A stretch of 22,945 nt of DNA from a virus, in IMG/VR virus record IMGVR_UViG_3300023184_000543, positions 1-22,945 of that record; one strand, written 5' to 3'. A model generated the notes under the pieces. That model worked only from the letters and a program-made list of their open reading frames with translations. It made no database searches and had not been told where the DNA came from. A program made the position numbers and the translations under genes. Shown one piece after another: positions 1 through 22,945 of this stretch. The first letter of the stretch is position 1. Every line of letters starts with the position of its first letter.

Positions 1-13
1 CTGTTTGTTTCAT
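1..13 (-). CDS. 5' end of a gene continuing off the left edge
   Basis: An ATG at 11-13 (minus strand) begins MKQT and runs out of the window. It is preceded by the same leader, ACAATTTAAAAAGAAATAAT, found before four genes near 9.3-10.7 kb, which is the reason for calling a start here. Nothing can be said of the product. Confidence 0.5.
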
Positions 14-24
14 ATTATTTCTTT

Positions 25-339
25 TTAAATTGTTTTTTCAGCTACATCATATTTAGTTTCTGGATAAAATTCAACACAATACACTCTAAACTTGTCTTTA
101 TATGTTTCACCATTCCAATCATCACCATTTTTACAACATTCATATTCATAATAACCTTCATAATCATTTGGATACTTTGTATTATGTGGAGTAAATCCTA
201 AACATCTACCTGTATTTCTTTCATCAGCACCACAATAGTCATCTAGTGCTAATTTTAAATTATCAAATGAATCAGCTGATATGATTGGAAATCTATCTTC
301 ATAATCACAAGCAAGATATGTTACTTTAATGTATGTCAT
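25..339 (-). CDS. Hypothetical acidic phage protein, 104 aa
   Basis: I do not recognise this protein. It is rich in Tyr, Asp and Glu, with a Cys pair (ECCKNG) and no membrane segment or signal peptide, so a small soluble protein is likely. The start at 339 has the A-rich leader ACAATTTAAAAAATAATT. The stop lies inside the conserved leader of the next gene at 11-33, but in a different reading frame from that used by the other genes carrying this leader. It is the last complete gene of the minus-strand accessory arm in this window. Confidence 0.75.
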   Translation of the reverse strand: MTYIKVTYLACDYEDRFPIISADSFDNLKLALDDYCGADERNTGRCLGFTPHNTKYPNDYEGYYEYECCKNGDDWNGETYKDKFRVYCVEFYPETKYDVAEKTI

Positions 340-1897: not shown

Positions 1898-2130
1898 TTT
1901 TTAGTTTTTAGTCCTGTTATCCAACAATCTAATTCATCTACATTAAAGATTTTTCCATTACATACATTTAAAGAATTCTCAGTTTCTTCTCTTAAATTCA
2001 TTTCATCTGCTATAACAGTGATGGTTCTTGAATTGATTTTAAGTTGTTCTGCTAATTTGTATAATGGTGTAGTGTAATAGTTTTCAGCTATTATTTTTTT
2101 TGTTTCTTCTGATGGTTTTATTTTTCTCAT
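1894..2130 (-). CDS. Small helix-turn-helix protein, 78 aa
   Basis: A probable DNA-binding helix-turn-helix lies at residues 20-48 (YKLAEQLKINSRTITVIADE), with the usual pattern of a short turn between two helices and polar residues in the recognition helix. The rest (FNVDELDCWITG) may help dimerise. It overlaps the downstream gene by 4 nt and the upstream GIY-YIG gene by 4 nt, so the three are probably co-transcribed. It could regulate the unit or direct the nuclease; the sequence cannot separate these. Confidence 0.75.
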   Translation of the reverse strand: MRKIKPSEETKKIIAENYYTTPLYKLAEQLKINSRTITVIADEMNLREETENSLNVCNGKIFNVDELDCWITGLKTKK

Positions 2131-3038
2131 GTTAATCTATTTTTTGATAATTCTAATTCTTTTGCTTCTGATGGGTATTTTTTCCATATATATCCATATG
2201 CTTGTTTTTGTTTACCAACAAAGCAATTTTTAATAGCTGTTCTACTAGATAATTTTAAATCTTTTACAACTGTTTGTAAATTGTCATACACTTTTATCAA
2301 AGTACCATCTAAAGAATATTGAGCTATTTGATTTTTATGATAAAAATTACAAATATCATCATAAGACCATATATAACCTCCAGCTGTTTTTCTTTGCTTG
2401 TTTGCTACTTTATAAATAGAAGTAGTATCTATATTTGTAATATTACTAGCCTTAATAACAGATTCATAAGTATTTATACAATTACATTGTTTATCATATT
2501 GATATACAAAATGCTTACGTTTATTATAAAGATTTACTGTAATTTTTTGTAAATAGTCTTCTGTATACCACTTCCAAACATAATTACCAGCTTTAATAGA
2601 TTCTCCATTTAAATTAGCATATATATTTTTATCATTAATTTTTAATATATATGTAGTTTCTGATACACTATTCCAAATATGCATAAAATTACCTTCTAAA
2701 TCATACTGAATAATTTTTTTAGGATCTCCATTTTTATATTCACCACCAGAAGATATATTAGCTAATAAACCTGTATTATGACATATTCTACCATACTTTT
2801 TAATTAAATTTATTTCAGCTTGCATACATTCATCTTGATTATCATAAATTTTTATGATATCTACTATAATTTGTTTTTTATTTTTAAGCCAAATTTTGTT
2901 CCATATAGAGTTTCTTTTACCAGGTCCAAATTCATATGCTCTAGAATATCTACCTGGAATATCTGAACCAATACCTACATAAAATACATTATTAGTATCT
3001 GGTCTTGTATGAGTATAAAGATAAAATTGTTTGTTCAT
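2127..3038 (-). CDS. GIY-YIG homing endonuclease with three NUMOD-like repeats, 303 aa
   Basis: The N-terminal nuclease domain has FYLYTHTRPDT and VFYVGIGS as the GIY and YIG strands, an Arg-rich stretch (GRYSRAYEFGPGKRN), the Glu helix AEINLIKKYGR, and the Asn motif NISSGGE. Three repeats of about 50 residues follow, each running from (I/V)xQYxxxG/C to a GY(I/V)W or NYVWKW end: near IIQYDLEGNFMHIW, FVYQYDKQCNCINTY and IAQYSLDGTLIKVY. These resemble the NUMOD1 modules that bind DNA in homing endonucleases. The frame is open to 3077, but the A-rich start at 3038 begins exactly before the nuclease fold. It overlaps the next gene by 4 nt. Confidence 0.88.
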   Translation of the reverse strand: MNKQFYLYTHTRPDTNNVFYVGIGSDIPGRYSRAYEFGPGKRNSIWNKIWLKNKKQIIVDIIKIYDNQDECMQAEINLIKKYGRICHNTGLLANISSGGEYKNGDPKKIIQYDLEGNFMHIWNSVSETTYILKINDKNIYANLNGESIKAGNYVWKWYTEDYLQKITVNLYNKRKHFVYQYDKQCNCINTYESVIKASNITNIDTTSIYKVANKQRKTAGGYIWSYDDICNFYHKNQIAQYSLDGTLIKVYDNLQTVVKDLKLSSRTAIKNCFVGKQKQAYGYIWKKYPSEAKELELSKNRLT

Positions 3039-3040
3039 AA

Positions 3041-3076
3041 TGTCATATAATTTACTGTACAACATAATATATGACA
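3041..3076. repeat. Inverted repeat TGTCATATA...TATATGACA upstream of GIY-YIG gene
   Basis: TGTCATATA (3041-3049) and TATATGACA (3068-3076) form a 9-bp inverted repeat with an 18-nt spacer just upstream of the start at 3038. The left arm belongs to an 11-mer also found at 431 and 1350. It could be an operator, a promoter-linked element or a nuclease site. Confidence 0.55.
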
Positions 3077-3095
3077 AATACTACATACTACAAAA

Positions 3096-3509
3096 TTATT
3101 CTATAAGTTTTAATCCCATTTCTATAGCATCTTCTATTGACAAATGATCATGAATATAGTTATGACAATTTCTACAAACTGCTTTATATGTATCAACTTG
3201 TAAATAATATTTACTTCTGTTTTTACCAGAATAAAGATGATGAATGTCAGTTGCTTCTGCTGTGCATATTCCAGGTAATTTAGCTTCACAAAAAGGATGA
3301 GATTCTAAATAGAGTTTCCTCAACTTAGAATACTCAATATCTTTTTGCTTTTTTTTATCACTAACCCTATTGATAAAAGTTTTTGTAACAGTTTGTTTTG
3401 GAGGAATTAATATATAAGTGCAATATTTACAGTATTTCTTACCATCTATACACTTGTATATTAGTTTTTCCTCTTTACAACCATTACATATTTTCTTTTT
3501 TACTACCAT
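3096..3509 (-). CDS. HNH endonuclease with N-terminal zinc finger, 137 aa
   Basis: The N-terminus has two CxxC pairs (CNGC and CKYC) forming a zinc ribbon. The C-terminal half is a classic HNH domain: Cys pairs (FCEAKLPGIC and CRNC), the His pair in TDIHHLYSG, then CHNYIHDH with the final Asn and His. This is the size and layout of free-standing phage HNH endonucleases, which act as homing enzymes or packaging helpers; here a homing role is more likely because the gene is far from the terminase. The start codon overlaps the end of the upstream gene by 7 nt. Confidence 0.88.
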   Translation of the reverse strand: MVVKKKICNGCKEEKLIYKCIDGKKYCKYCTYILIPPKQTVTKTFINRVSDKKKQKDIEYSKLRKLYLESHPFCEAKLPGICTAEATDIHHLYSGKNRSKYYLQVDTYKAVCRNCHNYIHDHLSIEDAIEMGLKLIE

Positions 3510-3670
3510 TCTAAACCACCGTTACAACTATTAACTTTATACATAATAATAAATTGTGCATTAGGATGAGTGACAAAAAATATGTTTAATGCATCAATTG
3601 CATTTTCAGCAGGTATTGTTATTCCTGTAGGTAATTCTGGTTGAGTGGCTTTGTAAACTATATGATACAT
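3503..3670 (-). CDS. Small conserved phage protein, YHIVYKATQPELP type, 55 aa
   Basis: The short globular protein begins MYHIVYKATQPELPTGITIP, followed by an alpha-beta stretch (AIDALNIFFVTHPNAQFIIM) that recalls small ribbon proteins of Bacteroidota phages; no function is known. The frame is open to 3709, but that would overlap the previous gene by 34 nt. The ATG at 3670 lies 5 nt after that gene's stop with an A-rich leader (ACTAAAATAAACAAC), so it is preferred. It overlaps the HNH gene by 7 nt. Confidence 0.72.
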   Translation of the reverse strand: MYHIVYKATQPELPTGITIPAENAIDALNIFFVTHPNAQFIIMYKVNSCNGGLEW

Positions 3671-3675
3671 GTTGT

Positions 3676-4197
3676 TTATTTTAGTTGGTAAAAATTGTTT
3701 GGAAGACAAGTTAATTCTATCATTTTATCAATGACATTTTGATGACTTATTCCTAAATCTTTAAAACTACTATAGTTTAGCAATCCATCACAATAATAAT
3801 CAGAATTGCTACTTATGCTAGATATTAATTTAGAATTAGGAAATAACTTAGATAGTAAACCATTTACTTTGAGCTGAGTTATTTGTTGTTTCCAACGGTT
3901 AATAAGTTTTTGTGTAATTTCATGTTTATGCCTAATATTCAATTTTTCTCTATATGATATGTTTTTTAATTCTTTATCACTAAGAGCTTCCACACCATAT
4001 AATGCAAGTCTATACATTTTAATTTGTGTTGGATTTAAGTTTACAGCTTCATCCTGATAGTTTTTTGAAGAAAAATTCTTTTCAATTTGATTTGACATTT
4101 CTTTTTTTTCATAATGAATAAAGAAATGTTTTTTAGTGTCTGTATAATTTACACAGATTCCATTAGGTATTGCTGTTACTACTTTGTTTGTTTGCAT
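3676..4197 (-). CDS. Hypothetical protein, 173 aa
   Basis: I do not recognise this protein. The first 30 residues are beta-like and partly hydrophobic; the middle, with LNPTQIKMYRLALYGVEALS and ELKNISYREKLNIRHKHEIT, is helical and basic, which would suit a nucleic-acid-binding or structural role. The Thr-Gln-Ile-Lys helix followed by LSDKEL loosely resembles a transcription-factor-type HTH, but I would not rely on it. An alternative start is Met34, which also has an A-rich leader. The terminator at 4252-4284 lies upstream, so this gene probably begins its own unit. Confidence 0.7.
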   Translation of the reverse strand: MQTNKVVTAIPNGICVNYTDTKKHFFIHYEKKEMSNQIEKNFSSKNYQDEAVNLNPTQIKMYRLALYGVEALSDKELKNISYREKLNIRHKHEITQKLINRWKQQITQLKVNGLLSKLFPNSKLISSISSNSDYYCDGLLNYSSFKDLGISHQNVIDKMIELTCLPNNFYQLK

Positions 4198-4251
4198 AGT
4201 TTAAATAAATTTAAAGTTAATAAATAATATATATAATTTTGTTAATAAAAT

Positions 4252-4284
4252 ACAAAGAGCCTCATATTAAATGAGACTCCTTGT
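4252..4284 (-). terminator. Rho-independent-type terminator hairpin after gene 4310
   Basis: On the minus strand ACAAGGAGTCTCAT and ATGAGGCTCTTTGT form a 14-bp stem (two G-U pairs) with a 5-nt loop, followed by the U-rich ATTTTATT. It is perfect only when read on the minus strand, matching the direction of the gene ending at 4310. Confidence 0.75.
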
Positions 4285-4309
4285 AAGTTTTTGGGTGTGT
4301 CTAACTAGA

Positions 4310-4783
4310 TTAGAATGTTACAGTTTCAGATGGAGCTGTATTAGTCATAAGATCTTTTACAAGAGCTAATGCTTCTCTGATTTCATCTGTATTAGTGTGA
4401 TGAATCAATGTATCTTGATCAAGACTGCTTGTACTATAACGTGTTCTACGGTAGATGGGTTGATCATCTACACGGCAATAAACACCTGTAGATCCTGCCA
4501 TTTTCATTTCACGTTCTGCTTTTGCAGGATCAAATGGTTGTAATGATTCTTCTACAATAATTCTACCATCTAATTCTTGATTAGCTTTAAAATCAAAGTT
4601 TTGCAAATCTTCAATTTTTCCAAAGATTAATGCTGATCTTTTCTCATTCTTAACCCAATTGTTAAGACCAATTGTTCTAAGATGTTGTTCAATCCTTATA
4701 TATCCAATTTCTGGATTTAAAGATTGTGTGATGACATTTCCTAGGTCATCTGCTACCACTGTTACTTTTTGATTGTTTATCAT
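4310..4783 (-). CDS. Hypothetical protein, 157 aa
   Basis: The protein is soluble, with a mixed alpha-beta N-terminus (KVTVVADDLGNVITQS, then IRIEQHLRTIGLNNWVKNEK) and a Ser/Thr-rich region (RRTRYSTSSLDQDTLIHHT) before a C-terminal helix. I do not recognise a family and see no catalytic motif. It stands alone between two hairpin terminators (4252-4284 and 4811-4841), so it is either read through from upstream or has its own promoter that does not resemble the host consensus. Its base composition is slightly richer in G and C than its neighbours, which would suit strong expression. Confidence 0.75.
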   Translation of the reverse strand: MINNQKVTVVADDLGNVITQSLNPEIGYIRIEQHLRTIGLNNWVKNEKRSALIFGKIEDLQNFDFKANQELDGRIIVEESLQPFDPAKAEREMKMAGSTGVYCRVDDQPIYRRTRYSTSSLDQDTLIHHTNTDEIREALALVKDLMTNTAPSETVTF

Positions 4784-4810
4784 GTTTTTAATTTTTAAGA
4801 TTTAATTAAT

Positions 4811-4841
4811 AAAAAAAGGGTGGACATTACATCCACCCTTT
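4811..4841 (-). terminator. Terminator hairpin after gene 4861
   Basis: GGGTGGA (4818-4824) and TCCACCC (4832-4838) form a perfect 7-bp GC-rich stem with a 7-nt loop. On the minus strand the stem is followed by seven T residues. A flanking AAA/TTT extends the stem. Confidence 0.88.
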
Positions 4842-4860
4842 ACACTTTACATTTTTTTTG

Positions 4861-5115
4861 TTAGTCATCTAACATAGACCTATCTAAATCAAGGTCACTT
4901 AGTTTTTGAACACTATCAGTTTCTAATAAATCAGGAGTTATATCATCATCCACTTCTATAGTCACTTTATTTTGAAAAGATGATTTAAAAAATGGATTAT
5001 TTATATTTTCTCCTACATTATATGCTACTAAATATTCAATATCATCATCAGTCATTTCAAGAAACTGCTCTAATGATATTTCTATTACTTTTCCAGTTGA
5101 TAATTGGTAAATCAT
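4861..5115 (-). CDS. Conserved acidic phage protein, 84 aa
   Basis: The N-terminal half, MIYQLSTGKVIEISLEQFLE followed by MTDDDIEYLVAYNVGE and a NPFF segment, resembles a small protein common in Bacteroidota phages; its function is unknown. The C-terminal half is strongly acidic (IEVDDDITPDLLETDSVQKL, then DLDLDRSMLDD), a feature of DNA mimics and of proteins that bind basic partners, although this is only inference. The start at 5115 has a Thr/Asn-coding-free A-rich leader (CTATACAACCAAA). A strong terminator follows. Confidence 0.8.
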   Translation of the reverse strand: MIYQLSTGKVIEISLEQFLEMTDDDIEYLVAYNVGENINNPFFKSSFQNKVTIEVDDDITPDLLETDSVQKLSDLDLDRSMLDD

Positions 5116-5191
5116 TTTGGTTGTATAGTGTAAATATACAATTAACTAGAGATTAACACACTCATCTTATATAATAAACTGGATAATAGAG

Positions 5192-5356
5192 CTATGATTT
5201 GTGTCCGTAAAACTTTTTCTTCCAATAAGCATTAGTTTTATTGATTATTTCTTGTTTTTCTTGAAGTTTATTTTTTAATTTTTTATTTTCTTCTTCTAAG
5301 AAACTCAACTTTTTTCTAATACTTGGCACTATTCTTTGAATAAATAAGTCAAACAT
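5192..5356 (-). CDS. Small coiled-coil protein, 54 aa
   Basis: This short gene begins MFDLFIQRIVPSIRKKL and continues with a continuous charged helix (SFLEEENKKLKNKLQEKQEI) that has leucines at heptad spacing, like a leucine zipper, ending in a basic tail (WKKKFYGHKS). The start is 5 nt downstream of the stop at 5362, so it is the last gene of the AAA+ ATPase operon. A role as an oligomerising partner or adaptor of the ATPase or of the 251-aa protein is possible, but unproven. It ends in TAG. Confidence 0.72.
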   Translation of the reverse strand: MFDLFIQRIVPSIRKKLSFLEEENKKLKNKLQEKQEIINKTNAYWKKKFYGHKS

Positions 5357-5361
5357 TTATA

Positions 5362-6117
5362 TTATAGATTTATATTAAACAATTTGTTAAGTTGTTCTAC
5401 CACTTCAGGTGCTTGATTTTTAATAATATTTTTATTAACATGTACACGTGCTTGTTTAGCTATAGCATCATAACTAATAACTTTAGATAGATCACCATAA
5501 GCATTACGTTTTTCAGATACAGGAATGTTATTATAAAAATCCATCACTCTTTGATTGTGTTTTTCAATATCAGATAAAATCTGTTCTTTAGATTTAGATG
5601 TTTTATAAGAATAAGTATCAATGAATTGAATTGTACGACTATTTACATGAACATTAAATTCACCATTAACTTCTGATATATCCTGTATTGTACCACTAAT
5701 AGTTAATCTAAGATTACCTGAAAGAGCTAATATTTTAATACTATTTCTAAGAGATATTTTTATTTTATCATTTGTGCCTTCTTCAACATGAATATCTTTA
5801 ACATCTAATTTTATGCTATCAACAATACCATTAAAACTATGATAAATAGTATTATTTTCTACACCTAATGATTCATTATAATGTTTTGATGCTTTTATTT
5901 TTTTCATAAACTGAGCATCTATTTTAGAATAATCTTGATAAGCATCTAAATCAAAGTTAGGTACTGATTCTATAGATTGCATAATTCTATCATATGCTTC
6001 TGTAGATATAATTTCTACAATATCATTTTGATTAATACTGCTTTTAATTCCAGATTGTTCTAATTGTGCTGCTGTTAATGTTGCAACATCTTGTGTTGTT
6101 GTTTTAGTTTTTGACAT
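5362..6117 (-). CDS. Hypothetical protein of the AAA+ operon, 251 aa
   Basis: I do not recognise this protein. It has a low-complexity Thr/Gln-rich start, an acidic segment (SVPNFDLDAYQDYSKIDAQF), a beta-rich middle (NSIKILALSGNLRLTISGTI, then FNVHVNSRTIQFIDTY) and a helical C-terminus (APEVVEQLNKLFNINL). The beta-rich core could be a barrel or a jelly-roll. It lies directly between the AAA+ ATPase (gap 25 nt) and the small coiled-coil gene (gap 5 nt). That fixed spacing suggests a shared complex, perhaps substrate and remodeller. Confidence 0.78.
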   Translation of the reverse strand: MSKTKTTTQDVATLTAAQLEQSGIKSSINQNDIVEIISTEAYDRIMQSIESVPNFDLDAYQDYSKIDAQFMKKIKASKHYNESLGVENNTIYHSFNGIVDSIKLDVKDIHVEEGTNDKIKISLRNSIKILALSGNLRLTISGTIQDISEVNGEFNVHVNSRTIQFIDTYSYKTSKSKEQILSDIEKHNQRVMDFYNNIPVSEKRNAYGDLSKVISYDAIAKQARVHVNKNIIKNQAPEVVEQLNKLFNINL

Positions 6118-9000: not shown

Positions 9001-9110
9001 TTGTATTTGTTTATAAGGGTTTGTAAATCTGCAACGAATACCACTTCATCTAAGCCATCTGTATACTTTTCTTGACTTATTAATAACTCCAACTCTTCAA
9101 CGGGTATCAT
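8997..9110 (-). CDS. Small conserved phage peptide, 37 aa
   Basis: MIPVEELELLISQEKYTDGL followed by DEVVFVADLQTLINKYK is a plausible small protein with an N-terminal and a C-terminal helix. The frame is open upstream to 9281, but that part overlaps the well-supported gene 9097-9342 on the same strand in another frame, so I take the ATG at 9110, which overlaps that gene's stop by 14 nt. It ends with a 4-nt overlap into the next gene. Confidence 0.6.
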   Translation of the reverse strand: MIPVEELELLISQEKYTDGLDEVVFVADLQTLINKYK

Positions 9111-9342
9111 CTTCGGGGGTTGGTAGGAAGAATGAGGAGATATTAACTGTTGGTAAAATTGTTCTATTATCACCATACCATACACCTTCTTCAAATCCAT
9201 AATATTTAGAATGCCCTCTTGTCTCAATATGTTCTTCACTTGCAGCATTAAGTACATTATGTAAGTCTTCAAGGCTACCATTGTTTATTACCATTATTTC
9301 TCCGTTCCTAAGTTTTTCTACTAATTCTTGATTTATATTCAT
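9097..9342 (-). CDS. Conserved phage hypothetical protein, LPTVNISSFF family, 81 aa
   Basis: The layout LVEKLRNGEIMVINNGSLED near the start and RTILPTVNISSFFLP near the end belongs to a small protein family frequent in Bacteroidota phages; the function is unknown. The frame is open 8 codons further, but those codons are the conserved leader plus the coding end of the previous gene. The ATG at 9342 follows the leader ACAATTTAAAAAGAAATAAT exactly, one nucleotide after the upstream stop. Confidence 0.8.
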   Translation of the reverse strand: MNINQELVEKLRNGEIMVINNGSLEDLHNVLNAASEEHIETRGHSKYYGFEEGVWYGDNRTILPTVNISSFFLPTPEDDTR

Positions 9343-9362
9343 ATTATTTCTTTTTAAATTGT
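9340..9362 (-). repeat. Conserved start-associated leader, copy 2
   Basis: ACAATTTAAAAAGAAATAAT followed by ATG. Other copies: 11-33, 10265-10287 (one mismatch), 10521-10543 and 10704-10726, always ending in a start codon. Here it also codes for the end (QFKKK-stop) of the upstream gene. Confidence 0.85.
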
Positions 9363-9607
9363 TCAAATAATTCTTTTGTTGTATAGTATTTCATATCTAA
9401 ACCAATCCAATTATCTTTAGATGCAGTTTGAAAATCTTTGATTCTAATCCATTCAGCAAACTCAATAGCCTCACTATACATTCTTTCAGCTTGCCATTTA
9501 GCACCTGCTATAAAAGCAATTTCTGTTTGTTGTTTTTCTGCTTCACTTAAATATATTCCACCCCAAACATATATTTCAGCAGCTTCTTCTAATTCTTTTT
9601 TATTCAT
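9344..9607 (-). CDS. GAKWQxERMYSE-domain protein, paralog 1, 87 aa
   Basis: This is one of three related proteins in a row. The shared plan is an N-terminal LEEAAEIY helix, the core FIAGAKWQAERMYSE (about residues 31-46), and the C-terminal end LFEQFKKK. The family is common in Bacteroidota phages and prophages and has no known function; the core looks like an amphipathic helix with aromatic and basic residues. In this copy the usual EEEV after the core is replaced by AIEFAEWIRIKDF. The start overlaps the upstream zinc-ribbon gene by 8 nt. Confidence 0.82.
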   Translation of the reverse strand: MNKKELEEAAEIYVWGGIYLSEAEKQQTEIAFIAGAKWQAERMYSEAIEFAEWIRIKDFQTASKDNWIGLDMKYYTTKELFEQFKKK

Positions 9608-9791
9608 AATCTTCTTTATCTATAACATTAGTTTCACTTTTACAATCAAAGCACCATTCTAAAGTAGTACCTGAATCAGCAGAATAAATTTCTTCTGTAT
9701 TTACATTAACCCATTTACATCTAGCAACTTCTTCTGAACCACATTCTTTACACACTTGTAAATAAGTACTGAGTGTTTCTTGTTTATTCAT
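9600..9791 (-). CDS. Small zinc-ribbon protein, 63 aa
   Basis: Two Cys pairs, CKEC (residues 14-17) and CFDC (47-50), frame an antiparallel stretch (VARCKWVNVNTEEIYSADSG), forming a zinc ribbon. The form is familiar from small Bacteroidota phage proteins annotated only as hypothetical. Zinc ribbons of this size commonly bind nucleic acid or contact RNA polymerase, which here is inference. The gene is separated by 2 nt from the upstream stop and overlaps the downstream start by 8 nt. Confidence 0.8.
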   Translation of the reverse strand: MNKQETLSTYLQVCKECGSEEVARCKWVNVNTEEIYSADSGTTLEWCFDCKSETNVIDKEDYE

Positions 9792-9793
9792 AT

Positions 9794-10267
9794 CTATCTT
9801 TTTATGTACCTATTTAATTGTGACCATACTTCCCAAGCTCTACTATTAAAATCAGGTCTTTCTAAGCTCCAACCTGTTTCCTTAAAAGGATTAGAACAAC
9901 AATAATCTACTGTTTTATGAGGAGTTTTTACTCTAACTCTAAAATCTATCATATTACCTGTAAAAGATACTTTTTCAACTTCATAAAGAATTACTTCTCT
10001 TCTCCAGTCAAAACTGAGTAAGCATTTTAAAACAAAATCTTCTTCTTTGTTTTTAATACCCAATCTAAGCCTATTAAATTCTAACTCTTTTTGTTGTTTT
10101 TTGTTAGTAGGCTCAATAAACATAAAATTATATACAGGAAAATCTTCAAGAGTAGTTTCTTGTTTAGCTTTTTCATAATAACCTTCACCATAATTAGTTC
10201 TTGGATGATTATCTTCTATACTATCAGGAGATGGGTCTTCATTTTCAAATTCTAAATTATTATTCAT
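9794..10267 (-). CDS. Hypothetical protein, 157 aa
   Basis: I do not recognise this protein. It has an acidic disordered start (FENEDPSPDSIEDNHPRTNY), then an alpha-beta fold with a basic WRREVILYEVEKVSFTGNMI strand region, two adjacent Cys (DYCCSNPFKETGW) and a C-terminal Trp-rich helix (RAWEVWSQLNRYIKR). The ATG at 10267 directly follows the conserved leader (10265-10287, one T to C change) and is one nucleotide after the upstream stop; a longer frame to 10327 would merely read through that leader. Confidence 0.75.
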   Translation of the reverse strand: MNNNLEFENEDPSPDSIEDNHPRTNYGEGYYEKAKQETTLEDFPVYNFMFIEPTNKKQQKELEFNRLRLGIKNKEEDFVLKCLLSFDWRREVILYEVEKVSFTGNMIDFRVRVKTPHKTVDYCCSNPFKETGWSLERPDFNSRAWEVWSQLNRYIKR

Positions 10268-10287
10268 ATTATTTCTTTTTGAATTGT
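10265..10287 (-). repeat. Conserved start-associated leader, copy 3
   Basis: ACAATTCAAAAAGAAATAAT then ATG. It differs from the other copies at one base, a synonymous Phe codon change (TTT to TTC) in the overlapping end of the upstream gene. Confidence 0.82.
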
Positions 10288-10523
10288 TCAAACCAGATTT
10301 TGTTTTCTTCCATATCATTTTTATCAATATATTGATATATGAAAGTTTCTAAATATTTAGTATGGTGCTCTAATATTTCTAACACTTCTTCCTCACTATA
10401 CATTCTTTCTATTTGCCATTTAGCACCTGTTATAAAACCTAATTCAACATTAGTTTTTTCCATAAAATGTTTAGTGCCATCTTTTGTATAATTTTCAGCA
10501 GCTTCTTCAAGTGTTTCTTTCAT
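10269..10523 (-). CDS. GAKWQxERMYSE-domain protein, paralog 2, 84 aa
   Basis: The protein has the same plan as the gene at 9344: MKETLEEAAENYTKDG at the start, FITGAKWQIERMYSEEEV in the middle and WFEQFKKK at the end. The middle helix after the core (LEILEHHTKYLETFIYQYID) differs from the sister copies, so only the start, core and end are conserved. The start follows the conserved leader at 10521-10543. The function is unknown. Confidence 0.85.
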   Translation of the reverse strand: MKETLEEAAENYTKDGTKHFMEKTNVELGFITGAKWQIERMYSEEEVLEILEHHTKYLETFIYQYIDKNDMEENKIWFEQFKKK

Positions 10524-10543
10524 ATTATTTCTTTTTAAATTGT
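10521..10543 (-). repeat. Conserved start-associated leader, copy 4 (non-coding context)
   Basis: This copy is identical to copies 2 and 5 but lies after the stop of a small membrane protein, so it is not translated as part of that gene. The reading KQFKKK-stop is still present in the DNA, like a remnant of a paralog's end. It runs into the 12-bp palindrome TTGTTTAAACAA. Confidence 0.82.
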
Positions 10544-10553
10544 TTAAACAATA

Positions 10554-10706
10554 TTAATGTATTTTAGTGAATCTAAACCATCCTATAAGAAACATAAACA
10601 TCATTGGTACAGAAGGGCATTCTCTCATAATAGAATAACCATTGATACTAACTAATACTATTATACCTAACCAAAAGGGATAATACTTTAAAAACTTTTG
10701 CTTCAT
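10554..10706 (-). CDS. Small two-helix membrane protein, 50 aa
   Basis: This short gene encodes MKQKFLKYYPFWLGIIVLVS followed by INGYSIMREC, and then PSVPMMFMFLIGWFRFTKIH. There are two hydrophobic segments (FWLGIIVLVSING and MMFMFLIGWF) with positively charged ends, so both ends probably face the cytoplasm. It starts one nucleotide after the upstream stop, with the conserved leader at 10704-10726. It appears inserted between two members of the ERMYSE family. No family is recognised. Confidence 0.72.
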   Translation of the reverse strand: MKQKFLKYYPFWLGIIVLVSINGYSIMRECPSVPMMFMFLIGWFRFTKIH

Positions 10707-10726
10707 ATTATTTCTTTTTAAATTGT
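10704..10726 (-). repeat. Conserved start-associated leader, copy 5
   Basis: ACAATTTAAAAAGAAATAAT then ATG, here also coding for the QFKKK end of the 303-aa upstream gene. Confidence 0.85.
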
Positions 10727-11619
10727 TCAAACATTTTAATTGTAAAGTCTTTTATTCTGGTATATGGGATGTTAACTTTATCATTTATAGTTCTTTGTAT
10801 AAACATACCTTCTTCACAAGAGAGTTTAATTATTTCTTTGACTTCTTCCTCACTATACATTCTTTCAGCCATGTATTTAGCACCATTGATAAATGCTTTT
10901 CTTTTTTTAAAGCAATCAACATCTCTATTATAATGCCATTCAGGTTTATCTAAAGGATTTGAAGGAAATTCTCTATAAAAATTTATGGCAGCTTCTTCAA
11001 GTGTTTCTTGTTTAGGTTCTTCTAATGGACTACAATCACAATAGCTTGTATGACCACAATAACACTTAATCTGTTTAGGATCTAATGCACCCTTCAAAGA
11101 CATATAGTTTTTGGCTCTTTGTTTAGCTTCTTCTTGTGGAATGATTGGTTTGTACTTATAAATTGTTATTGTACTATAACTACTTCCAGGTTTATTATTA
11201 ATCTGTTCTTCTTCAACCTCAACTTCCTCACAACTTGGATTATTAACAAACCATTCTAAAAACTCATCATCAATACTCTGAACACCATCTTCAATTAAGT
11301 CTTGGTCTGTTGTTAGAATGATTTTACATCCTTCATCTATATAAATAAAACCCGAAGATAAAATTAAAACTTTACCATTTTTAGGGTCTATTTTACATTC
11401 TATAACTTTGTCAATATGATTAATCCAAGTTTTATCTCTATCATTTGCTATAATGTAAAAATCTTTATCTCCTTCTTTAATTTCTTCATCAGAAGTGATG
11501 TAGATGTTTTGACTACTAATAGTATTTTTACCAAAATTCAAGTCACATAAAACTAAACCTGAATTTCCTAAATGTAACCTACTTGGTTTATCTGTTGGTA
11601 TAATGTGTATATTTTTCAT
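10708..11619 (-). CDS. Two-part phage protein: KNIHIIPTDKPSRL domain fused to ERMYSE domain, 303 aa
   Basis: Residues 1 to about 165 are a family often seen in Bacteroidota phages, with MKNIHIIPTDKPSRLHLG, YITSDEEIKEGD, IILTTDQDLIEDGVQSIDDE and FLEWFVNNPSCEEVEV. A Cys-rich linker (CYCGHTSYCDC) could bind zinc. The last 100 residues repeat the family seen at 9344 and 10269: ETLEEAAINFY, FINGAKYMAERMYSEEEVKE and MFEQFKKK. It is therefore a fusion of two phage modules. Neither has a known function. It is the first gene of the cluster, following a terminator. Confidence 0.87.
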   Translation of the reverse strand: MKNIHIIPTDKPSRLHLGNSGLVLCDLNFGKNTISSQNIYITSDEEIKEGDKDFYIIANDRDKTWINHIDKVIECKIDPKNGKVLILSSGFIYIDEGCKIILTTDQDLIEDGVQSIDDEFLEWFVNNPSCEEVEVEEEQINNKPGSSYSTITIYKYKPIIPQEEAKQRAKNYMSLKGALDPKQIKCYCGHTSYCDCSPLEEPKQETLEEAAINFYREFPSNPLDKPEWHYNRDVDCFKKRKAFINGAKYMAERMYSEEEVKEIIKLSCEEGMFIQRTINDKVNIPYTRIKDFTIKMFEQFKKK

Positions 11620-11645
11620 AATTTTTTATTTTTATAATATTTGTA

Positions 11646-12660: not shown

Positions 12661-12822
12661 TTAAATACTATATTTAACTTTATACATAATGCTTTTTCCT
12701 ACATTTTGACATGACATGATAGTCATATCTCTAAATTTCTTGGTGATGTAAGCAAACCAAGATTGAAATTCTCTTGCTGATTTAAATAGCAAGTTTTTGA
12801 TTGAAAACTTTTGTTTTTTCAT
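12661..12822 (-). CDS. Small basic hypothetical protein, 53 aa
   Basis: The basic peptide starts MKKQKFSIKNLLFKSAREFQ and has a Trp/Tyr-containing middle (SWFAYITKKFRDM). It may be a small nucleic-acid- or membrane-associated protein; no family is recognised. The start at 12822 has the leader TTAAAAACAAAACA that recurs before other genes of this arm. An open extension to 12900 would cross the copy of the tRNA 3' end at 12867-12882 and is rejected. Confidence 0.6.
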   Translation of the reverse strand: MKKQKFSIKNLLFKSAREFQSWFAYITKKFRDMTIMSCQNVGKSIMYKVKYSI

Positions 12823-12866
12823 TGTTTTGTTTTTAATTGTTAATTTAAATTGTTTATAATGTTTTG

Positions 12867-13358: not shown

Positions 13359-13429
13359 AGTCAGGACAAGGATTCGAACCTGCATCTCTTTGATACAATC
13401 AAAGGCGTTACCAATTACGCTACCTGACT
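13359..13429 (-). tRNA. Atypical tRNA-Thr (anticodon UGU)
   Basis: The 71-nt cloverleaf has acceptor AGTCAGG/CCTGACT (7 bp), a D arm with TAATTGGTAA, an anticodon stem CTTTG/CAAAG with loop ATTGTAT (anticodon TGT, U33 present), and the T arm GCAGG-TTCGAAT-CC(T)TGT. Three points are odd: no base at position 26, a bulged T in the T stem, and no encoded CCA (discriminator A, then AATGG). It lies 9 nt after the gene at 13439. A phage Thr tRNA reading ACA would suit AT-rich codon use. It may be weakened in function or rescued by the mobile element beside it. Confidence 0.8.
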
Positions 13430-14685: not shown

Positions 14686-14827
14686 TTAAAAGGTAAACTA
14701 ATAAGGCAATTGATATTAAGGTGCATGATTCACAAGCAATCATTAGATTGATGTTTCTTGTGATCATTGAGTACATCATTCCTATCATAAATAAGAATAG
14801 TGCAAGAAGTAAAAGGTTTTGTTTCAT
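14672..14827 (-). CDS. Small two-helix membrane protein, 51 aa
   Basis: The gene encodes MKQNLLLLALFLFMIGMMYS, then MITRNINLMIACE and SCTLISIALLVYLLKTKQ. There are two hydrophobic helices with a short loop (ITRNINL) and a basic C-terminus. Its stop TGA overlaps the next start (ATGA), so the two membrane proteins are translationally coupled and may interact. The leader CACATTAAAAACAAAAAAC is shared with the gene at 15162. No family is recognised; holin-like or exclusion roles are possible but unsupported. Confidence 0.72.
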   Translation of the reverse strand: MKQNLLLLALFLFMIGMMYSMITRNINLMIACESCTLISIALLVYLLKTKQ

Positions 14828-14838
14828 GTTTTTTGTTT

Positions 14839-15309: not shown

Positions 15310-15510
15310 TTAATATTGTTTACTAATAACAAGATCATCTAACATAGTAGACATTCCTTTAAGTGCTAATGAAGCACATATTTTAGTAGGAAATACACCA
15401 TATACAAATCCATCAGTTCCAATAATGCAATATTGCAAAATCTTACCTTTAGATGTTATAGTTTCTTGTGTAGGAGCAGGTACTCCTAATAAATCATAAT
15501 ATTTTTCCAT
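15310..15510 (-). CDS. Hypothetical protein, 66 aa
   Basis: A small soluble protein, MEKYYDLLGVPAPTQETITS followed by a beta hairpin (ILQYCIIGTDGFVYGVFP) and a C-terminal helix (ICASLALKGMSTMLDDL). No family is recognised. The start at 15510 has the leader TTTAAAACA. An open extension to 15546 lacks such a leader. This is the first gene of the minus-strand arm, facing the control region. Confidence 0.7.
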   Translation of the reverse strand: MEKYYDLLGVPAPTQETITSKGKILQYCIIGTDGFVYGVFPTKICASLALKGMSTMLDDLVISKQY

Positions 15511-15568
15511 TGTTTTAAATTTTATTTGTGACCTGTATATATACAACGCACTAGACCTAACACTGTTT

Positions 15569-15591
15569 ATAGTCTTCTAGTAGACTTATAG
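15569..15591. repeat. Imperfect palindrome in the control region
   Basis: TATAGTCTTCTAGTAGACTT is nearly self-complementary around CTAG, with two mismatches. It lies upstream of the first minus-strand gene and might be an operator; the evidence is weak. Confidence 0.3.
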
Positions 15592-20011: not shown

Positions 20012-20037
20012 TAAATAAATTAAAAACAAAAACAAAC

Positions 20038-20319
20038 ATGAAAAAATTAATTGGAACAAGAGTTTTGATTACAAAACCAGTAAAACCAGAATCAACAATT
20101 GTAATCTCTCCTGAAATGGAAGATGCATTGGAAAGAGAAATGATGAAAAAATGGACACATTTAGAAGTGTATGCTATTGGCTCAGAAGTAACTTCTGTTA
20201 GTGTAGGAGATAGTGTATATGTACCTTCTTATTCTTTACAATCAGCAGATTTAATTGAATTAGATGATTTGTCAACAAAAATGATGATTTCTGAAAGAGA
20301 CATTGCAATAATATGGTAG
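20038..20319 (+). CDS. GroES-like (Cpn10) co-chaperonin, 93 aa
   Basis: The whole length lines up in order with GroES: IGTRVLITKP (strand 1), the loop that varies, THLEVYAIGSEVTSVSVGDS (like GroES GEVLAVG...VGD), VYVPSYS and MMISERDIAIIW (like GroES MSESDILAIV). The mobile loop region (PESTIVISPEMEDALEREMM) differs and lacks the usual GGI motif. Phage co-chaperonins such as T4 gp31 help the host GroEL fold large capsid proteins, which would fit its place just before TerL and the expected capsid genes. The name rests on my reading of the alignment. Confidence 0.72.
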   Translation: MKKLIGTRVLITKPVKPESTIVISPEMEDALEREMMKKWTHLEVYAIGSEVTSVSVGDSVYVPSYSLQSADLIELDDLSTKMMISERDIAIIW

Positions 20320-20501: not shown

Positions 20502-22945
20502 AATAGAAAATAATTATTATATTCAAATCCCTACATTTGAAAACAACATTTGGACAACCACAGTTTTTAATACAAGAGATGAATATAAAGAATTTGTAAA
20601 TTCTATTTTTATTGATGCAGGTCCTGATAAAGGATATGGGTTTGATGAAATGAGTTTTGAATTTAATAGTGAAGCTAGAAAATTTCAAAAACAAGGATAT
20701 TATACTAATGTACCTTTTAGGTCAAAGGATTATGTATTGTATTGGGATGACCAAAAAAACAAATGTAAGAATGGTGTAATCTTTAAGAATAAAGGTAAAA
20801 CATGGTATCTCACTAGAGATTATTATATGTGGTTGAATTTTCTTCCTATTTATGATAAGGAAGAAAAAAGATTTGACTTTGCTAAAGTGAGGGATGCTCA
20901 ATATCATATGGCATTATATGAATGGAAGGCAGAACTTAATTATAAACATTGTCCTATATTAAAAAAACGTCAGATAGCTAGTTCCTATTTTCATATGGGT
21001 AAACTAATAAATGCTTATTGGTTTGAAGAAGGATCTGTAAATAAAATAGGAGCTAGTCTTAAAGACTACATTTCTGAGAAAGGATCTTGGAGGATGTTAA
21101 ATGAATATAGGAATTTCTTAAATGAGCACACTGCATGGTATAGACCATCAGAACCAGATAAGATATTTTCATGGCAACAAAGGATTAAAGTGAGAATTGG
21201 TGGTCGTGATACATACAAAGGAAATAAATCCATCATCACTGGTACATCATTTGAGAAAGATCCAACTAATGGTGTTGGAGGGCCCTGTCATACAAAAGAC
21301 ACTTTAATATGTATGAGTGATGGGTCATTAAAAAAAATTCAAGAAATTAAAATAAATGATTTAGTATGTGGTTTTGATGGCTACCCTAAAAAAGTATTAA
21401 AGTTATTTAATGGATCATCTGATATTTATAGAGTAGAACAGAGTAAAGGAATCACTTATAATGTAACAGGAGAACATAAATTATTATTATGGGAAAAAAA
21501 TAAAAATGATTATAGGATTATTAAAACTGAAGAGTTTAATAATTTATCAAAAGACAGGAAAAGATTTTTAAAAGGAATAAAGTTTAAAGGTTTAATTGGT
21601 GAAGAAAAAAATCTTTCTATAGATCCTTATTATTTAGGATTGTATTTAGGTGACGGTTGTAAATATGATTTTACTATTTTAGTAAATAAAACAAAAGATA
21701 TAGAAATATGGGAATGGCTTGAAAAAAAATCTTTAGAGTTAAATATTCCTTTGTGTAAAAAAAATAAAAATTTATATAGAACAGATTATAATGATTCTAT
21801 GTGGGAAGGACATTTTGGTACAAGAAACCTTACTAAAAGAGAAAGAGATGATTCTTATAAAACAAAAATGTTAGAATTAGGACTGAAAAATAAACATATT
21901 CCTGATGTTTATTTTCAATCATCTAAACAACAAAGATTAAATCTTTTAGCTGGTATTTTGGATACAGACGGTTATTTAAATCATAAAAAAAATCGTTTTG
22001 AAATAACATTACATAATGAACAACTTGCTAATGATTTACAACATTTATGTATTTTAACAGGATTTGATGCTCATAAACACATTGTTGAATCTGATAATAT
22101 AAAATCAACTGTAGTAAATAGTATAACTAAAGGATGGAGAATAAATATTACGGGTAATATAACAGATATTCCTACTAAAATTAAAAGGAAACAAGCATTA
22201 AAAAACGGTATTAAAAATAAAAACAGATATAGTAATATTACTGTAACACTTAATGGTATTGATGAATATTTTGGTTTTGAATGTGAAGATAATTTATATG
22301 TTTTAGAAGATGGTACTACCACTCATAATTGTACTTATTTCTTTCATGAGGAAGCAGGTATTGCTCCTAAGATGATGGACACATATGAGTTTATGAGACC
22401 TGCCTTACAATCTGGTATGGTGACTACAGGAACATTTATTGCTGCTGGATCTGTGGGTGATTTAGATCAATGTATTCCTCTAAAAGAAATGATCTTGTAT
22501 CCCCACAAATTTAGCATGCAAGCTGTCACTACAGATTTATTAGATGGTAATAAGACAATAGGTGAAACAGGACTTTTTATTCCTGAACAATGGAGTATGC
22601 CACCTTATATAGATGCATTTGGAAATTCTTTAGTGAATGAAGCTTTAGAAGCAATTTATGAAGAACGTAAACAATGGAAAAAAGATCTTAGTCCAGAACA
22701 ATACCAGCTACGTATATCTCAAAAACCAACTAACATTGAAGAAGCTTTTGCTACAAGAAAAGAATCTGTATTTCCACCACATTTAATATCACATCAACTT
22801 AAACGTATAGAAGATGGAGAATATCCAGTTGAATATGTTACATTATCTATAGGAGAAGACAATGGTAAAATCATTGCTACAAAAACTAATAAGAGTCCAA
22901 TAAAGAAATTCCCTATAGATAAAACTATGGAAGATAAGTCTGGAG
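20488..22945 (+). CDS. terL: Terminase large subunit (TerL) interrupted by an intein, 3' end outside window
   Basis: The motor of DNA packaging. The N-terminal extein (266 aa) has the crAss-like TerL features LTRDYYMWLNFLPIY and KKRQIASSYFHMGK (Walker A-like), with WFEEGS and GASLKDYISEKGSW after it. The C-extein starts CTYFFHEEAG, whose FHEE is Walker B plus the catalytic Glu, and continues APKMMDTYEFMRPAL and TTGTFIAAGSVGDLDQ (coupling motif region). No stop occurs before the window ends, so the nuclease domain lies outside. The 348-aa intein at 21286-22329 must splice out for activity. The start overlaps the previous gene by 14 nt. Confidence 0.92.
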   Translation, partial: MQQHKIENNYYIQIPTFENNIWTTTVFNTRDEYKEFVNSIFIDAGPDKGYGFDEMSFEFNSEARKFQKQGYYTNVPFRSKDYVLYWDDQKNKCKNGVIFKNKGKTWYLTRDYYMWLNFLPIYDKEEKRFDFAKVRDAQYHMALYEWKAELNYKHCPILKKRQIASSYFHMGKLINAYWFEEGSVNKIGASLKDYISEKGSWRMLNEYRNFLNEHTAWYRPSEPDKIFSWQQRIKVRIGGRDTYKGNKSIITGTSFEKDPTNGVGGPCHTKDTLICMSDGSLKKIQEIKINDLVCGFDGYPKKVLKLFNGSSDIYRVEQSKGITYNVTGEHKLLLWEKNKNDYRIIKTEEFNNLSKDRKRFLKGIKFKGLIGEEKNLSIDPYYLGLYLGDGCKYDFTILVNKTKDIEIWEWLEKKSLELNIPLCKKNKNLYRTDYNDSMWEGHFGTRNLTKRERDDSYKTKMLELGLKNKHIPDVYFQSSKQQRLNLLAGILDTDGYLNHKKNRFEITLHNEQLANDLQHLCILTGFDAHKHIVESDNIKSTVVNSITKGWRINITGNITDIPTKIKRKQALKNGIKNKNRYSNITVTLNGIDEYFGFECEDNLYVLEDGTTTHNCTYFFHEEAGIAPKMMDTYEFMRPALQSGMVTTGTFIAAGSVGDLDQCIPLKEMILYPHKFSMQAVTTDLLDGNKTIGETGLFIPEQWSMPPYIDAFGNSLVNEALEAIYEERKQWKKDLSPEQYQLRISQKPTNIEEAFATRKESVFPPHLISHQLKRIEDGEYPVEYVTLSIGEDNGKIIATKTNKSPIKKFPIDKTMEDKSG
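21286..22329 (+). mobile_element. LAGLIDADG (DOD) intein in TerL, 348 aa
   Basis: Splicing and endonuclease blocks are intact. Block A begins CHTKDTLICMSDGSLKKIQE. Block B is ITYNVTGEHKLLLW (TxxH). Endonuclease blocks C and E are LGLYLGDGC and LLAGILDTDGYL, each with its acidic residue, and block D is NKHIPDVYF. Block F is EYFGFECEDNLYVL, and block G ends EDGTTTHN followed by Cys+1. It starts with Cys and ends in His-Asn, so it is a class 1 intein. The joined host sequence is GVGGP-CTYFFHEEAG, so it sits right before Walker B. Its length is that of a full-size intein. Confidence 0.93.

Follow-up and report, generated by a model that had tools for sequence, protein, structure and literature searches.

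What is the 23-nucleotide sequence that stands in front of five genes of a single phage, and why has it been kept there? The window, by which is meant the whole stretch of DNA that was analysed, is a complete IMG/VR record of 22,945 bases with a G+C content of 27.6% and of phage origin. An initial annotation had noted the 23-mer ACAATTTAAAAAGAAATAATATG at 11-33, 9340-9362, 10265-10287, 10521-10543 and 10704-10726, in four exact copies and one changed copy, and had proposed that its conservation acts on the DNA or RNA and not only on a peptide.

The leader in the window

All five copies were recovered at these positions on the minus strand, and not one match occurred in 100 dinucleotide shuffles. 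The changed copy (10265-10287) carries a single T>C exchange that is synonymous in the QFKKK frame. The leader, given as ACAATTTAAAAAGAAATAAT, is without a Shine-Dalgarno core. The reading frames are also as first described: the copies at 9340, 10265 and 10704 encode the tail QFKKK* of the upstream gene, the copy at 10521 lies behind a stop codon, and the copy at 11-33 is read in another frame by a 104-aa ORF (25-339) that ends in AEKTI*. In the coding copies the conserved unit is longer than the 23-mer, its 5' side reaching TGGTTTGA. This longer unit is designated block B.

11-33, minus strand: leader, 3' part of block B; exact match, precedes a truncated gene (MKQT..), out of frame as ..KTI*
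9344-9367, minus strand: block B copy (TTTGAACAATTTAAAAAGAAATAA), in-frame FEQFKKK*; the ATG that closes leader 9340-9362 starts gene 9097-9342
10269-10292, minus strand: WFEQFKKK* copy of block B, one synonymous change; its leader 10265-10287 precedes gene 9794-10267
10525-10548, minus strand: block B copy read by no ORF, with a QFKKK-frame stop 7 codons upstream; its leader 10521-10543 precedes gene 10269-10523
10708-10731, minus strand: block B copy, in-frame FEQFKKK*; leader 10704-10726 before gene 10554-10706

An RNA structure as the basis of the leader was ruled out, as the five copies fold no better than shuffled sequences (fold z-scores -0.8 to 1.4) and an Rfam scan of the window yielded no match at the leaders. 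Elsewhere in the window, a tRNA gene (13359-13429, minus strand) exceeded its Rfam gathering score, and a Pistol ribozyme (15527-15586, minus strand) scored 37.6 bits against a gathering score of 34.5. The ribozyme, a self-cleaving RNA in a phage genome, lies just 5' of or overlaps the start of a 78-aa ORF (15310-15546).

The leader is the end of a mosaic gene family

The leader is not an independent element but the 3' constant block of a mosaic gene family. Genes of this family have the layout N-V1-A-V2-B, in which three nearly fixed DNA blocks of about 17 (N), 41 (A) and 24 nt (B) surround two freely variable segments, V1 and V2. Block N encodes ETLEEA, block A encodes GAKWQAERMYSEE and block B, TGGTTTGAACAATTTAAAAAGAAATAA-n-ATG, encodes WFEQFKKK*. 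An alignment of 33 member proteins reads MxKETLEEAAE, variable, GAKWQAERMYSEE, variable, EWFEQFKKK, with FKKK as the most conserved peptide. The window contains the following family features in addition to the block B copies.

9344-9607, minus strand: mosaic-family gene, 87 aa, MNKKELEEAAE..GAKWQAERMYSE..FEQFKKK (ORF and alignment)
9368-9464, minus strand: V2 exchangeable segment; 66 nt are 92-95% identical to segments of three contigs whose N-terminal parts and next genes are different
9465-9505, minus strand: block A copy encoding GAKWQAERMYSE.., 4 mismatches to the consensus
10269-10523, minus strand: mosaic-family gene, 84 aa, MKETLEEAAE..GAKWQIERMYSEEEV..WFEQFKKK (ORF and alignment)
10293-10386, minus strand: V2 exchangeable segment; 66 nt are identical to L068/L115, which differ in their other parts and in the next gene
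10387-10427, minus strand: block A copy, 3 mismatches to the consensus
10501-10517, minus strand: block N copy (GAAACACTTGAAGAAGC, ETLEEA), from DNA comparison
10708-11619, minus strand: longer mosaic-family gene, 303 aa, with a MKNIHIIPTDKPSRL N-terminal part fused to an ETLEEA / GAKY..ERMYSEEEV / FEQFKKK module
10844-10884, minus strand: block A copy, 5 mismatches to the consensus
10991-11007, minus strand: block N copy within the 303-aa gene, from DNA comparison

The proteins resemble little that is catalogued. Against the INPHARED phages, megablast of the window and tblastn of the three family proteins gave no match, a consensus family protein gave only E=0.1 matches, to Flavobacterium elemo phages, and blastn with a 40-nt block-B query gave matches at chance level only. 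Scans of family members against Pfam and NCBIfam revealed no fitting family, and the PHROGs scan only a marginal match to a PHROG of unknown function. The predicted structure of the family protein consists of four helices (mean pLDDT 65) and had no match in a viral fold library.

That the blocks are conserved as DNA is evident from their codons. A scan for WFEQFKKK* that allowed every synonymous codon returned, among the matches listed, nearly one DNA sequence, TGG TTT GAA CAA TTT AAA AAG AAA TAA. The second lysine of the tail is AAG in 87 of 93 of these matches, compared with 14% of all lysine codons in gene bodies; in a sample picked by block A it is AAG in 76 of the 78 matches listed. The KKK codon fixation is partly ordinary: internal KKK, used for comparison, is AAA-AAG-AAR in about 39% of cases and AAAAAGAAA in 36%, and the last lysine codon of the tail shows no fixation above background. 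Block A was scanned by its ERMYSEEE motif regardless of the tail, and among the matches listed its serine is AGT in 119 of 122 (41% across the family) and the glutamate that follows is GAG in 109 of 124 (16% across the family). The leucine of ETLEEA in block N is CTT in 107 of the 123 matches listed, as against 18% across the family. Since ERMYSEEE and ETLEEA are as fixed as the tail, the family has three constant blocks, of which the leader is the 3' part of the last. It also follows that codon fixation by itself does not indicate a start-site function, because the internal block A and the start block N are fixed to the same degree. The initial interpretation holds in part. Conservation does concern the DNA or RNA besides the peptide, but the leader is not free-standing: it forms the 3' end of genes that belong to a shuffled family, and most of its copies encode the tail.

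The extent of this coding was determined by scanning IMG/VR with the 20-mer that remains when ATG is removed from the 23-mer. The scan listed 112 DNA stretches, or 105 copies after removal of duplicates. Whether the sequence always ends in ATG had been posed as a check; among the matches listed most copies do so but not all, 85 of the 105 standing 0-4 nt before an ATG. Of these 85, 72 encode QFKKK* or lie in a frame open to the contig end. The remaining 13 fall outside a QFKKK* reading by an ORF of at least 35 aa: three are out of frame (..TI*) and ten are unread, with shorter in-frame ORFs at four of the ten. Copies of this kind include 11-33 and 10521 in the window and those in L101, L096, L131, L107, L054 and L019. 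The initial annotation had reasoned that duplication alone would suffice if the copies occurred only behind genes ending in EQFKKK; these 13 copies occur elsewhere.

The base between stop codon and ATG is not fixed. Among the 257 relatives listed, 141 have a spacing of 1 nt, 39 of 2 nt, 21 of 3 nt and 16 of 4 nt, and 219 leaders lie at most 4 nt from an ATG. For 170 of the 223 listed leaders that have an ATG close by, the gene that follows belongs to no recognised family. Leaders in arrays whose peptide is altered (FERNKKK, FEKIKKK) retain AAAAAGAAATAA-n-ATG. A 90% identical relative of gene 25-339 in L212 keeps ..AEKTI* together with ACAATTTAAAAACAAATAACATG / AAACAAATAACATG and is followed by a different gene; several more distant homologs of the 25-339 gene are without the leader. 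The out-of-frame copies could be inherited remnants without a present function.

Exchange of segments at blocks A and B

Variation in the family consists of the replacement of whole segments rather than of scattered changes. The ends of overlapping-homology segments, which conserved blocks lengthen, were replaced as a measure by stricter pair tests, in which genes with at least 80% identity in the 66 nt before the tail were compared outwards. In the downstream direction, identity ended no more than 6 nt after the stop codon, that is at block B, in 49 of 54 V2-sharing pairs. In the upstream direction it ended inside block A in 30 of the 31 V2-sharing pairs in which block A could be located. The reciprocal test gave a corresponding result: 21 of 23 pairs with V1 at least 80% identical have an unrelated V2, and all 21 lose identity 6-50 nt into block A. 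Pairs within one cluster are not independent, and the safer figures are the cluster counts, according to which more than one context occurs downstream in 28 of 31 V2 clusters and upstream in 26. As a control, other tight same-strand junctions on these contigs were examined. Homology extended at least 60 nt onward at 40.5% of these junctions compared with 2.7% at block B. In the pair-test version of the control it continued at least 60 nt into the next gene in 30 of 63 pairs at other junctions and in 0 of 16 at block B, and it covered the whole gene in 37 of 63 and 0 of 16, respectively.

The phages that carry the family are otherwise distinct. Six terminase proteins of carrier genomes show mutual identities of 46-94%, and the window has 865 nt in total in common with three carrier genomes, which were compared over 160, 116 and 100 kb. 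Every shared piece lies within 1-34, 9332-9522 or 10247-11638 of the window. From the breaks at A and B, together with this restriction of DNA sharing between the window and the carriers to one locus, it was concluded that A and B are exchange joints. The earlier guess of cassette exchange is thereby borne out.

The family also forms tandem arrays; one example, at 73.5-74.3 kb of record G018, contains four block-B junctions in succession. All carriers are virus contigs from metagenomes except for the contig L245 of a Flavobacterium metagenome-assembled genome (MAG), a clear relative. The architecture of the 303-aa gene also occurs on a Flavobacterium MAG contig. A scan of bacterial genomes for FEQFKKK* was of no further use, in that most matches were an unrelated Prochlorococcus sequence and L245 was the only clear relative. 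The MAG contig and the start context discussed below suggest that the hosts are probably Flavobacterium-like bacteria.

Some observations concern other parts of these genomes. In the window, the frame of the terminase large subunit (about 21285-22330, plus strand) is, as judged by eye, seemingly interrupted by an intein-like insert from CHTKDTLICMSDG.. to near ..TTTHNC, and a gene resembling a GIY-YIG homing endonuclease with NUMOD1 lies at 2127-3077 (minus strand). Several copies that resemble the MKNIHIIPTDKPSRL part of the 303-aa gene stand in tandem at 2944-5666 and 7578-7908 of L251 (record G004), and this DNA is also common to the window, G018, G019 and G001; the copies make up a second family shuffled at the same locus. 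Further short stretches shared by phages otherwise unrelated in DNA lie away from the block-B arrays, at about 21.5-22.1 kb in L252 (G004), at about 10.3-10.6 and 45.2-45.7 kb in L265/L267 (G019) and at about 83-84.8 kb in L270 (G001). They are perhaps another mosaic family.

Block B as a probable translation start region

The position of block B suggests a further role. In Flavobacterium johnsoniae, adenines at -3, -6, -12 and -13 are reported to raise translation, in the absence of a Shine-Dalgarno sequence (PMC6847099). Among the 223 leaders listed, A occupies -12 and -13 in 221 (99% at each position), -6 in 198 (89%) and -3 in 182 (82%). For comparison, 569 other starts of genes in the window and three carrier genomes were used, which favor A at -14 to -11 and at -7 to -2, and T at -1. 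The window leader scores at the 89th percentile of the 569 starts, and a higher score is reached by only 0.8% of all ATGs. As block B stands 1-4 nt before the ATG and is rich in A at the four positions, it is most likely also the translation start region of the downstream gene. Such a role would explain the persistence of the leader behind upstream genes that have become truncated or frame-shifted or have given way to others. The suggestion that the leader guides translation gains support from the agreement with the phages' own start context and with the rules for Bacteroidota.

Related A-rich leaders, for example ACAATTAAAAACAAAACAATG and TTAAAAACAAAAACAAACATG, were seen by eye at 12821-12842 (minus strand), 14805-14830 (minus strand) and 20020-20040 (plus strand) of the window. 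Leaders of this type fit the general start context of the 569 starts.

Alternative explanations

Plain gene duplication followed by purifying selection on the C-terminal WFEQFKKK would make the leader simply the coding end of paralogues. The tail encoded by 72 of the 85 ATG-adjacent copies, the prominence of FKKK in the alignment and an AT-rich codon bias that favors most of the tail codons speak for this account, which is nevertheless unlikely. It does not accommodate the out-of-frame and unread copies, nor the preference for AAG at the second lysine that exceeds that of internal KKK, and it is largely refuted by the breaks in identity, which in both directions lie within the gene at block A and not at the gene ends. 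The opposite view, that only the leader functions, as a phage-specific signal for translation or regulation that resembles a start-associated sequence (SAS) and may be recognised by a factor of the phage, and that the peptide is a by-product, is slightly less probable still. It would account for the position directly before the ATG of diverse genes, for retention in several frames and for the fit to the start context. Arguing against it is the equally fixed DNA of the internal blocks A and N, which do not lie at a downstream start. Moreover, many genes of the same genomes start without the leader, among them the 569 starts of the window and three genomes, as do several homologs of the 25-339 gene.

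It might also be suspected that metagenome assemblers joined unrelated contigs at short repeats. All carriers but the one MAG contig are indeed metagenomic virus contigs, and the blocks, at 24-45 nt, are short enough to mislead small k-mers. However, the same junction, ..EEVIKFIEQFKKK followed by MSKQTAVEWL, was found in five metagenomes (L006, L039, L052, L057, L060), the family is present on the Flavobacterium MAG contig, and the four successive block-B junctions of the array lie inside one long contig. The identical junction and the arrays within long contigs make chimeric joins unlikely, and we regard an artefact as very improbable. The best explanation, to which we assign a probability of about 0.74, is that block B is the 3' joint of a shuffled gene family that is swapped by homology, and that it is very probably the start region of the next gene as well.

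Relation to known systems

The closest known systems are the shuffling of esaG genes through homology blocks and the PeSLs of T4-like phages. In the esaG/tipC immunity-gene arrays of Firmicutes, tandem paralogues recombine at homology blocks (PMC9484751). As in those arrays, tandem paralogues with conserved nucleotide blocks that alternate with variable segments were found here, and the mosaic breakpoints lie in the blocks, in 30/31 and 21/21 cases in A and in 49/54 at B. The esaG/tipC genes are chromosomal immunity genes of bacterial type VII secretion systems (T7SS), whereas the blocks described here are common to phages unrelated in DNA and the last block would, unlike theirs, also form the start region of the next gene. 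A Pfam search of the three family members in the window gave no match above the cut-off. PeSLs (promoter early stem-loops) are short regulatory sequences between small genes of T4-like phages and are said to mediate modular shuffling (Arbiol 2010 and Comeau 2014, cited in PMC4503421). A shared element at the edges of shuffled modules is likewise present here. As summarised in that source, PeSLs combine an intergenic early promoter with a stem-loop, in contrast to a joint that lies in the coding end of a gene and is without a stable hairpin; the second joint, inside the gene, would be another difference from PeSLs as described there.

The initial annotation had drawn a comparison with the SAS of cluster K mycobacteriophages, a 13-bp asymmetric sequence, 5'-GGGATAGGAGCCC, that contains a Shine-Dalgarno core and in about half of the cases carries inverted-repeat extensions (PMC3203893). 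The likeness is confined to position, both being short repeats of one orientation shortly before the ATG of genes of different families. The leader differs in sequence from GGGATAGGAGCCC and is without the Shine-Dalgarno core, and in place of inverted repeats the variable V2 coding segment lies upstream of it; at the five copies no fold is better than those of shuffles. It is therefore not a member of that family. With the Kozak-like regions of Bacteroidota (PMC6847099) the leader shares the A at -3, -6, -12 and -13 and the missing Shine-Dalgarno sequence, but those regions reflect a general base preference and the leader is a constant sequence of 20 nt that belongs to a mosaic family. Phage proteins that are otherwise unrelated may also have fragments in common; such domain mosaicism has been described mainly for receptor-binding proteins, endolysins and polymerases (PMC10684548). 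The proteins studied here, in contrast, are small and unannotated and are joined by constant sequences at the DNA level. A literature search found no paper with WFEQFKKK. What distinguishes the present case is that genes are shuffled through homology blocks across phages unrelated in DNA, with a joint that also serves as a protein tail and probably as the start region of the next gene.

A model of segment exchange and its implications

Block B is best read as a protein tail, a translation start region and a recombination joint together. We infer that homologous recombination is the process, that the identity of the blocks is due to their role as exchange sites and that the sequence drives translation. 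According to this model, homology-dependent recombination in A and B would swap V2 between co-infecting phages or paralogues, and V1 would be swapped between block N (or the gene start) and block A. Each incoming V2 would bring the same tail and become joined to whichever gene lies downstream. The identity of the blocks might be kept because each exchange copies them or because selection preserves them as exchange sites. Host or varied phage recombinases may supply the enzyme. Rad52-like phage recombinases act on short homology (PMC3945230). Among the carriers searched, none of RecT, Erf and Rad52 was found above the cut-off as a common recombinase; RecA-like genes are present in 6 of 17 carriers.

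More tentatively, and at somewhat less than even odds, the locus may be a site of combinatorial diversity common to Bacteroidota phages unrelated in DNA, in which N, A and B are kept as exchange sites, new small accessory proteins are assembled by drawing V1 and V2 segments from a shared pool, and the last joint keeps both the segment and the next gene translated. The assembled proteins are perhaps factors of host takeover or counter-defence.

Descriptions of phage mosaicism usually concern entire genes or large modules, and it has long been asked what determines the joints. In this family, which is abundant among virus contigs in public collections, the joints are short, defined sequences that lie inside or at the end of small genes. 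Because they are shared by phages with almost no other DNA in common, the exchange of segments is directly accessible to counting and testing. Three constraints, those of a peptide, a start region and a homology, seem to be satisfied by the last joint at the same time. If this is correct, a joint that combines a tail with a ready-made start would keep acquired segments translatable and the next gene expressed.
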